This document shows positions 12,829-27,715 of a stretch of 56,619 nt of DNA, piece after piece. A model generated the notes under the pieces. That model was given only the letters and a program-made list of their open reading frames with translations, did no database searches and was not told where the DNA came from. The first letter of the stretch is position 1, and every line of letters starts with the position of its first letter. Made by a program: the position numbers and the translations under genes. Origin of the DNA: Candidatus Moraniibacteriota bacterium (GTDB lineage: Bacteria > Patescibacteriota > Minisyncoccia > Moranbacterales > UBA1568); NCBI GenBank assembly GCA_018499985.2, contig JAHBAT020000010.1, positions 1-56,619 of the forward strand, in the 5' to 3' direction.

Positions 12829-12860
12829 GCTGGCGGTGTTTATTTAAAAAAAATTCCTCA

Positions 12861-12990
12861 ACCTTTTTCAGAATTGACTCCTTTAAGACCTATGCGTCAA
12901 GAATGTCTGCTCACGGGCCACGAGTATCCAGGCTTGCATGCATTCTAGTGACGCTTCAGTCCTAGAGTACTTACAATTCCTCAAGCGGTT
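12861..12990. repeat. Structured repeat, copy 1 (left flank of DGR island)
   Basis: This 130-bp element matches 41846-41976. The 51-nt core 12899-12949 differs from its partner at two positions, while the flanking helices differ but still pair. Here CGTC (12895-12898) pairs with GACG (12950-12953) where copy 2 has CGCC/GGCG. AGAATG (12900-12905) pairs with CATTCT (12941-12946). Outer pairs GAATTG/CAATTC, ACTC/GAGT and GAC/GTC follow. Compensatory changes point to selection on an RNA or DNA hairpin. The intergenic stretch 12829-13056 holds nothing else recognisable. Confidence 0.75.
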
Positions 12991-13056
12991 TCAGAAATTG
13001 TTTTTTAAAGAATTCAGAGAGGGATGATTCCAAGATATTGAACCATAACAGAACTA

Positions 13057-13085
13057 TTGACTTTTTAGAGAAATAAGAGTATAAT
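13057..13085 (+). promoter_or_regulatory. Near-consensus promoter of the DGR target gene
   Basis: TTGACT (13057-13062), a 17-bp spacer and TATAAT (13080-13085). This is the best promoter in the window by eye and predicts a leader of about 185 nt. Confidence 0.85.
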
Positions 13086-13108: not shown

Positions 13109-13237
13109 GGTTTACCGGAGCCATCACTTTTTTAGTCTTTCTTAGGTCAGTCTCTCTATTTAGAAGCTAAGCCTCTAAGTGCTTGGAGGTTGAACTCCAA
13201 GTTAGGGGGGGTAGAAGAGTGGTGGCTGTGGTAAACC
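13109..13237 (+). promoter_or_regulatory. Long structured leader of the DGR target mRNA
   Basis: GGTTTACC and AGCCATCAC (13109-13127) pair with GTGGTGGCT and GGTAAACC (13219-13237), 17 of 19 positions. The enclosed part holds a second helix (CCTCTAA/TTAGGGG, then CTTGGAG/CTCCAAG, 13172-13208). AAGGTG at 13266-13271 is a ribosome binding site for the ATG at 13279. A riboswitch-like or stability role is possible; no known class was recognised. Confidence 0.6.
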
Positions 13238-13278
13238 GAAATCCCTCGGAGCCAAGCATAGTCATAAGGTGACAGACC

Positions 13279-14007
13279 ATGGTGAATGGAACAAAACCCG
13301 CGACCGCCAAACAAGTGGTGGCAATCCAACAGATGCTCGGACAGGGTGTCTATGGAAGCGATCTGAGCTTTGATGAGGCGCAAGCGCTCATCACTGACAA
13401 ACGCGCTCAGCAAGCGCTGCTCCGAGATGTGCTCACAGCCTGGAAGCTGAAGCGTCTCATCAACCCTTATGTCGAAGAGCAGGCCTGGTGCCTGAACTTC
13501 CTTCAGGGTGCCGGCGTACTGACGACTGGTCTCGATGAGGCCGTCGTGCCCGAACGCCCGAGTGGCACTGCCTGGCTCATTCCACTCCCCGCAGGAGTCG
13601 GATGCAACCATATCTTCGATAATCTTTGGAACTTCGCCAAGTGGCGCTGGACGGATGATCTCGATGGCCAGCTGGCCAAGCAGGATCTTTCGGCGAGGTG
13701 GATCTGGGTCGAACCCAACCTGCCTGACCTCGAGCCGGATAAGGCCACACTTGGACAATCAGCCAACCAGGCTGACCCAGAGCAACAGAGCATCCAGCTC
13801 CGTGAGGGAATGATGTTCTATGCTGTGGCCTACCAGAAGACTGGTCGGGTGCCGGACAAGAAGGGTTATACTCTCTGCGGTGGCTCCCGCTATCGCGATG
13901 GCAATGTCCCGCGCCTCTACCTCAACGACAATGGCGAGGCGTACGTGGACAGGTACGGTCCTGACAAGGCGGTCGGCGCGCACGGAGTGCGTCAAGCAGT
14001 TCGGTAA
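13279..14007 (+). CDS. DGR target (variable) protein
   Basis: A 242-aa protein whose last 38 codons (residues 202-239) are the variable repeat of a diversity-generating retroelement. The N-terminal part (residues 1-60) is helical (AIQQMLGQGVYGSDLSFDEA); the middle is Trp-rich (NLWNFAKWRWTDDLDG, ARWIWVEPNL). The C-terminal GGSRYRDG...GVRQ fits the C-type-lectin-like fold of DGR targets. No signal peptide or membrane helix is seen, so the product may be cytoplasmic or exported by other means. Base composition is richer in G+C than the neighbours (sampled lines about 55% against 45%), which suggests transfer. Start chosen from AAGGTG seven bases upstream. Confidence 0.82.
   Translation: MVNGTKPATAKQVVAIQQMLGQGVYGSDLSFDEAQALITDKRAQQALLRDVLTAWKLKRLINPYVEEQAWCLNFLQGAGVLTTGLDEAVVPERPSGTAWLIPLPAGVGCNHIFDNLWNFAKWRWTDDLDGQLAKQDLSARWIWVEPNLPDLEPDKATLGQSANQADPEQQSIQLREGMMFYAVAYQKTGRVPDKKGYTLCGGSRYRDGNVPRLYLNDNGEAYVDRYGPDKAVGAHGVRQAVR
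13882..13994 (+). repeat. DGR variable repeat (VR)
   Basis: Ungapped 113-bp partner of the template repeat 14268-14380. Thirteen positions differ; twelve are A in the template and G, C or T here. The thirteenth (T to G) lies in the terminal GGAGTKCGTCA, the expected initiation-of-mutagenic-homing position. Ten codons are hit, nine with amino acid change: R212, D217, E220, Y222, D224, G227, V232, G233, H235 (A231 is silent). Confidence 0.93.
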
Positions 14008-14034
14008 CGCTTGAACCTTGTACCTTGGAACCTA

Positions 14035-14061
14035 GACCCGTTGCACAGCGTGCAACGGGTC
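14035..14061 (+). terminator. 12-bp hairpin just after the VR gene
   Basis: GACCCGTTGCAC / GTGCAACGGGTC, perfect, loop AGC, followed by AAAACTTTTT. It lies 28 bp after the stop codon. It can terminate the target mRNA, and it also has the position of the DNA hairpin that stimulates homing downstream of the VR in studied DGRs. Confidence 0.7.
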
Positions 14062-14091
14062 AAAACTTTTTATACGGTATTTATTTTTTGC

Positions 14092-14267
14092 TATACTGAC
14101 AATGGTTATGAAGCTGGTCTATTGATTAATAGATGACAGTTTACCACTCTATAAAACTGCCTGTCTCTCTATAGGTATTTTGATACCACTCATTGCTCAC
14201 TACTGTGCGATAACGCAGAACGATTTGGCGACAGGCGTTCGGTGCTCTAGACGTAGAGAGATAGTAA
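14092..14267 (+). ncRNA. Promoter element and structured leader of the template RNA
   Basis: A TATACT box (14092-14097), with a poor -35, precedes 170 nt without a gene. Local pairs are GGTAT/ATACC, TGCG/CGCA, CTCTA/TAGAG and CCTGTC/GACAGG. The sequence runs straight into the template repeat, so it is probably the 5' part of the template RNA. GTTTACC and GTCTCTCTAT occur in the same order in the target-gene leader, which may be chance. Confidence 0.45.
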
Positions 14268-14380
14268 GGCTCCCGCTATCGCGATGGCAATGTCCCGAAC
14301 CTCTACCTCAACAACAATGGCAAGGCGAACGTGAACAGGTACAATCCTGACAAGGCAGACGACGCGAACGGAGTTCGTCA
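14268..14380 (+). repeat. DGR template repeat (TR)
   Basis: Non-coding 113-bp donor repeat. In the target frame it reads as an Asn-rich series of AAY codons (PNLYLNNNGKANVNRYNPDK), the hallmark of template repeats in which adenines are mutated during reverse transcription. Of about 33 adenines, 12 are changed in the VR; of about 80 other bases, one is. It lies 273 bp downstream of the VR in the same orientation. Confidence 0.93.
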
Positions 14381-14395
14381 GAAGTTTTAGCAGAG

Positions 14396-14432
14396 ACTCA
14401 CTTTTCTAGAAGAGTGAGTTTATAGAATCTTT
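14396..14432 (+). terminator. Hairpin ending the template RNA
   Basis: ACTCACTTTT/AAGAGTGAGT stem (14396-14405, 14410-14419) with loop CTAG, followed by T-rich sequence to 14436. Confidence 0.6.
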
Positions 14433-27470: not shown

Positions 27471-27604
27471 CTCTCACAATTTTCTTTCGGGACACTCAAA
27501 TTTTCCTGCGAAATTTTCGTTCTATTTTTTCCTTAAAATTATTATCAGAGAGATAATAAGCCAAGCTTTTAAGAAAAAAAGCGCCCTCTCGAAAATCATG
27601 AGAG
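27471..27604. repeat. Structured element with conserved TCCTGCG loop, copy 1
   Basis: Closing stem CTCTCA/TGAGAG and ATTTTC/GAAAAT, then GGGAC. Hairpin 1 is AAATTT-TCCTGCG-AAATTT (27498-27516). TCTA follows, then long hairpin 2 (TTTTTT and CTTAAAA with TTTTAAG and AAAAAA; apical TTATTATC/GATAATAA) with a 7-nt bulge GCCAAGC (27560-27566) on its 3' side, and last GCGCCC (27581-27586). The copy at 53945 has the same loops and bulge with different stems. The rest of 27401-27715 has only the following gene's promoter candidate (TTGACA at 27620). Confidence 0.72.
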
Positions 27605-27715
27605 CAGTCATTCTTTACGTTGACAATCTGGGTATAAAGGGGTAGTCTGTGAAGTCCAGAAATCTGGGCAAAATTTGTTTGGCCGAAAGACCTTTGAAAG
27701 AGTAGGAGAATTGTC

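Follow-up and report, generated by a model that had tools for sequence, protein, structure and literature searches.

Template and variable repeats of a Patescibacteria-type diversity-generating retroelement in an assembled genome that lacks its reverse transcriptase and avd

In diversity-generating retroelements (DGRs) a reverse transcriptase (RT) and Avd copy a template RNA with errors at adenines, and the cDNA then replaces the variable repeat (VR) at the IMH. In the Bordetella phage BPP-1 a structured spacer located 3′ of the template repeat (TR), before the RT gene, recruits RT-Avd and primes the cDNA (PMC12875486). Incomplete DGR loci have been described in Thiohalocapsa PB-PSB1, where the missing functions can be provided in trans by other DGRs of the genome, which have RT and TR, or the RT is retained in strain variants (PMC10907252). 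DGR surveys start from the RT and loci that keep template and target without the enzyme are therefore invisible to them. Here we analyse a locus of this kind in a stretch of 56,619 nt (the window) from a genome of Candidatus Moraniibacteriota. The locus functions, or once functioned, as DGRs do, with a real template and a real target in an assembly that lacks the enzyme.

The repeat pair and its target gene

The original prediction, made on the DNA letters, was that two ungapped 113-bp repeats on the same strand differ at 13 positions, of which 12 are template adenines changed to G, C or T and the last lies in the terminal homing motif. The alignment of TR and VR (Table 1) bears this out. The repeats are 88% identical and lie 386 nt apart, start to start, and of their mismatches 12 fall on adenines of the TR (8 A>G, 2 A>C and 2 A>T), the remaining one being a T>G change close to the 3′ end; differences outside adenines are thus not many, but one in 13. 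Since no mismatch falls at a position where VR has A, the direction is from TR to VR. The T>G change is located in an IMH-like 3′ region, and repeats that end alike apart from one T/G difference have the form expected of IMH/IMH*. Similarity stops abruptly on the 5′ side and extends a few bases beyond the 3′ end. Before the IMH, none of the 68 non-adenine template sites differs (95% upper bound 4.3%). The assembled genome contains no further copy of the repeat. An origin of the pair by ordinary duplication followed by random divergence would explain that two similar copies exist and nothing more, and is hardly credible: TR contains 33 adenines in 113 positions, so that at least 12 of 13 mismatches would fall on A with a probability of 3.7e-6, none of the changes runs in the other direction, the TR is directly preceded by a template RNA specific to DGRs and homologues sit in complete DGRs.

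VR was also correctly recognized as the 3′ end of an ORF, as it codes for the C-terminus of the target protein. By codon count, the 12 adenine changes are spread over ten codons, nine of which are nonsynonymous, again as predicted. Only two TR codons are able to turn into stops.

Target-gene homologues are present in 45 of the 384 genomes of the class. Searches of Pfam, NCBIfam and PDB sequences with the target protein gave no significant match. An AlphaFold model of the protein (pLDDT 84) was compared with known structures by VIA-align, in which the C-terminal domain aligned with EgtB (Z 8.4), formylglycine-generating enzyme (FGE; Z 7.7) and the DGR proteins Mtd (Z 6.4, 111 residues, 3.4 Å) and TaqVP (Z 4.7). 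Foldseek gave no match for the protein at E <= 0.001 and all support for the fold comes from VIA-align. Known DGR targets have a lectin/FGE-like fold, and the modelled domain agrees with it at moderate strength.

The target gene has a GC content of 58%, compared to 43% for the window, and the target genes of relatives are likewise richer in GC than their surroundings. The hairpin in its leader holds a G7 run and could either be regulatory or derive from a MITE-like insertion. Imperfect direct repeats of 37 nt (73%; 12852-12888 and 12975-13011) are located between hinT and the target gene.

Table 1. Positions of the features of the locus in the window and the evidence for each.
Feature	Position	Strand	Evidence
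Promoter-like site of target gene, TTGACT-17-TATAAT	13057..13085	+	Consensus scan only
Stable leader hairpin upstream of target gene; relatives' leaders lack it	13109..13241	+	Fold z -5.96, inverted repeat, relatives
Target gene, 242 aa, probable lectin/FGE-like C-terminal domain	13279..14007	+	ORF, homologues, structure model, structural alignment
Variable repeat (VR)	13882..13994	+	Repeat alignment, mismatch statistics
12-bp terminator-like hairpin after target gene	14035..14061	+	Inverted repeat and consensus scan
Promoter-like site of template RNA, TTTATA-17-TATACT with TG	14069..14097	+	Consensus scan; -10-like box at same place in relatives
Conserved structured 5′ domain of template RNA	14104..14267	+	Covariance model built without window, 77 bits; covariation
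5′ side of predicted TR-closing stem, UAAAACU	14152..14158	+	Fold, pairing count in relatives
Template repeat (TR)	14268..14380	+	Repeat alignment, mismatch statistics
3′ side of predicted closing stem, AGUUUUA, directly after TR	14383..14389	+	Fold, pairing count in relatives
Hairpin and T-run ending template RNA, likely terminator	14396..14430	+	Palindrome, fold, sequence; not called by consensus scan

Conserved 5′ domain of the template RNA

Directly 5′ of the TR the window contains a conserved structured domain, as do the CPR-type DGRs of its relatives. The domain is about 165 nt long and common to about 28 cassettes; it starts (GGCUAAUACAAUCGG in many) approximately 6-7 nt past the -10-like box and ends at the TR. 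In an alignment of 24 sequences, including the window, RNAalifold placed 32 pairs, 25 of which are changed on both sides. For 31 pairs in three helices, 93.9% of the pairings are standard and the covariation score is 0.62, a value reached by none of 500 shuffles (mean 0.29) and far from the maximum of 0.18 obtained when partners were slid by 1-3 columns. Shuffling leaves relatedness in place, and the alignment scored here is also the one that yielded the structure, so that most weight falls on the slid control and on the independent match in the window. This match was obtained with a covariance model (R1) built from 23 cassettes with the window left out; it covers positions 14103-14275 with an E-value of 3.2e-21, has only standard pairs and ends at the TR start. 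A second R1 match at 27472-27625 (14 bits) was taken as chance. No Rfam family for the template RNA was found with this region and eight related loci, and the few matches in the window were far below gathering scores.

Folding of the window sequence alone (14104-14425, z -2.1) gave the same helices and additionally a UAAAACU/AGUUUUA stem that closes around the TR. For the corresponding GAAACU/AGUUUC stem, all six pairs can form, counting G-U, in 22 of the 28 sequences including the window, against 3.4% by chance, and the window has A-U where the relatives have G-C, which is one compensated case. We regard the predicted closing of the stem around the TR as suggestive, not proven. No account of a 5′ template-RNA domain was found in a literature search that did not include Paul et al. 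(2017), the main paper on CPR DGRs, and as far as searched the domain is new. It provides a covariation-supported candidate for the way in which DGRs of the large CPR group recruit their RT.

Absence of RT and avd from the assembly, and the relatives that carry them

In related cassettes the VR gene is followed by the TR, a terminator-like hairpin, a minus-strand avd and a plus-strand RT, and VR and TR are about 280-520 nt apart, start to start, except in the atypical locus L161. The avd product of the relatives is bAvd (PF22296) and their RT consensus includes LGNLTSQ, which fits (I/L/V)GxxxSQ, the motif typical of DGR RTs. A scan of genome contigs with a single protein gave no match, but an alignment-based scan did find matches.

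In the window, rpsU starts 305 nt past the TR, where relatives carry avd and RT, and the contig is continuous there. No RT was found in the assembled source genome (G000) with PF00078 (RVT_1) or with an RT profile built from ten relatives, and no avd with a profile built from six, in each case at E-values up to 10. As a positive control, both the RT and avd profiles match in G004, G006 and G009, which belong to the same genus. A tblastn search of the window for avd remnants gave nothing credible, and no deletion scar or remnant of avd or RT was found at the locus. Near-identical stretches of 14 nt on either side of the cassette (12987 and 14618) were rejected as an insertion scar, because two-copy repeats as short as these are often due to chance. 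As hinT and rpsU lie near each other across the genus, the unit of VR and TR represents an insertion between these genes. The original prediction missed the absence of the RT and avd genes: its reading as a DGR stands for the TR and VR of a CPR-type element and not for a complete DGR. We therefore class the locus as part of a DGR, comprising TR and VR, since the RT was not found in an assembly that is not closed (892 kb, 24 contigs, 98.6% complete). Moreover, present activity is not to be assumed, since RT and Avd are absent from both the window and the assembled genome.

The R1 model gave 39 copies in 35 of the 384 genomes of the class, and all but the source genome (34 of 35) encode an RT. 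Directly 3′ of the copies, within about 1 kb as read from the coordinates, a same-strand RT is found in 37 of 39 cases. Some copies belong to R1 training loci, which had been selected for target homology and a detectable TR irrespective of the RT. The two copies without such an RT are that of the window and one in G173. The latter (G173:C2:50738-50871) is weak, with 32.7 bits, and has no RT beside it, while the genome has RTs elsewhere; it is possibly a second separated template. The model can be used to find such RT-less loci.

This RT is lacking in 12 of the 45 genomes with target homologues. Among the sampled RT-less loci, the other target homologues are mostly without a detectable TR or are situated at contig ends. 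L152 has TR and avd and stops at the contig edge, L134 has a broken, partial template RNA and no RT, and L131 retains only a short RT fragment. The window is the only contig-interior locus in this sample that has VR and TR and lacks both avd and RT. In L131, L134, L135, L136, L137, L141, L143 and L144 the target homologue is accompanied by neither TR nor avd nor a full RT, and these eight are apparently frozen former DGR targets.

A separate observation concerns the RT genes of the relatives. A G7-G13 tract (mostly 9-11) lies at the start of the RT frame in 61 of 81 distinct DGR-RT loci (for example L071:3130-3139, L132:7587-7595 and L140:6966-6976), and on the opposite strand this tract falls within the N-terminus of avd. 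Some loci have nearby upstream ATGs that share the frame of the RT, whereas in other loci these ATGs are out of frame; in many RT frames the conserved domain is not preceded by any ATG. Judged from these frames, the tract is a candidate phase-variation switch. None of the papers found describes such a poly-G tract in DGRs and as far as searched it is new.

Origin of the locus and comparison with known systems

We propose, with a probability of about 0.58, that the window holds the template-and-target half of a Patescibacteria-type DGR from which avd and RT were recently deleted in this lineage, so that the VR is now frozen. In the intact system, the template RNA would have been about 325 nt long, running from the structured 5′ domain through the TR into a short tail that ends at the terminator. 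The RT of the element, together with Avd, would have copied this RNA with errors at adenines, and by replacing the VR, with which the target gene ends, the cDNA would have varied the probably lectin-like protein. The 5′ domain may be what RT-Avd recognises, and the stem around the TR may position priming. Subsequently, the lineage of the source genome would have lost the stretch with avd and RT that separated the TR terminator from rpsU. Such a loss agrees with the decay seen at related loci, namely L134 and L131. Since no non-adenine difference between TR and VR has accumulated before the IMH, the RT was probably active until recently; together with the fully paired template RNA, the absence of such differences suggests that retrohoming is recent on the scale of sequence drift. 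Against a loss, neither a deletion scar nor an avd or RT remnant is seen, an intact template RNA and a clean match of VR and TR are equally expected of an active element with an unseen RT, and the data do not cleanly separate a recent deletion from an unassembled or strain-variant copy.

The living population could accordingly contain a complete DGR, if avd and RT are on an unassembled contig or if the assembler took a strain variant without them. We consider this possible, with the odds leaning against it. With 24 contigs at 98.6% completeness a missing piece of 1.5 kb is possible, and in several relatives the contig breaks off within the RT or close to it (e.g. L139, L147 and L152), suggesting that the avd-RT segment can assemble badly. 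Template RNA and VR also look freshly used, and strain variants of this type were reported for DGR 7 of Thiohalocapsa PB-PSB1 (PMC10907252). However, the same-strand neighbour within about 1 kb is an RT for nearly all template RNAs, and here this place is taken by rpsU in a continuous contig. It seems very unlikely that an RT is supplied in trans from outside the genome, by another cell, a plasmid or a phage. To our knowledge, no DGR RT acts in trans between cells. The window's template RNA and VR are intact, and trans action inside one genome has been reported for other DGRs (PMC10907252), but the assembly contains no RT and the TR sequence had no match in viral contigs.

A broader model of Patescibacterial DGRs can be drawn up, to which we give an even chance. 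These DGRs would use a different template-RNA architecture, a self-contained transcript in which the conserved 5′ domain takes the place of a 3′ spacer in recruiting RT-Avd and pairs back with the TR end (GAAACU/AGUUUC), setting the cDNA start; RT and Avd may be phase-variable via the shared poly-G, and the window would be a natural RT-less variant that isolates the RNA. The RNA architecture and the poly-G tract of the relatives are the parts most worth follow-up.

The locus resembles the CPR/Patescibacteria DGRs (DGR clade 2; Roux et al., 2021, PMC8144416): the target protein is homologous, and the spacing of VR and TR and the terminator after the TR are alike. The locus differs from them by the lack of avd and RT, which the relatives both carry directly after the TR. 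Like the incomplete loci of Thiohalocapsa PB-PSB1 it is a target locus without RT, but here the TR is still beside the VR and no RT is present anywhere in the assembled genome, so that trans rescue as in that organism is impossible from within the assembly. With the phage BPP-1 it shares the adenine-specific change from TR to VR and a VR at the C-terminus of the variable protein; the 3′ end has an IMH-like form, and the lectin fold of the phage protein (Mtd) is favoured, at moderate strength, for the target protein too. Unlike in BPP-1, the conserved structure of the window is located 5′ of the TR, and the TR is immediately followed by a terminator-like hairpin, as it is in the relatives. Because the position of the 5′ domain differs from that of the structure in BPP-1, the best-studied system, the question of cDNA priming in CPR DGRs becomes directly testable.
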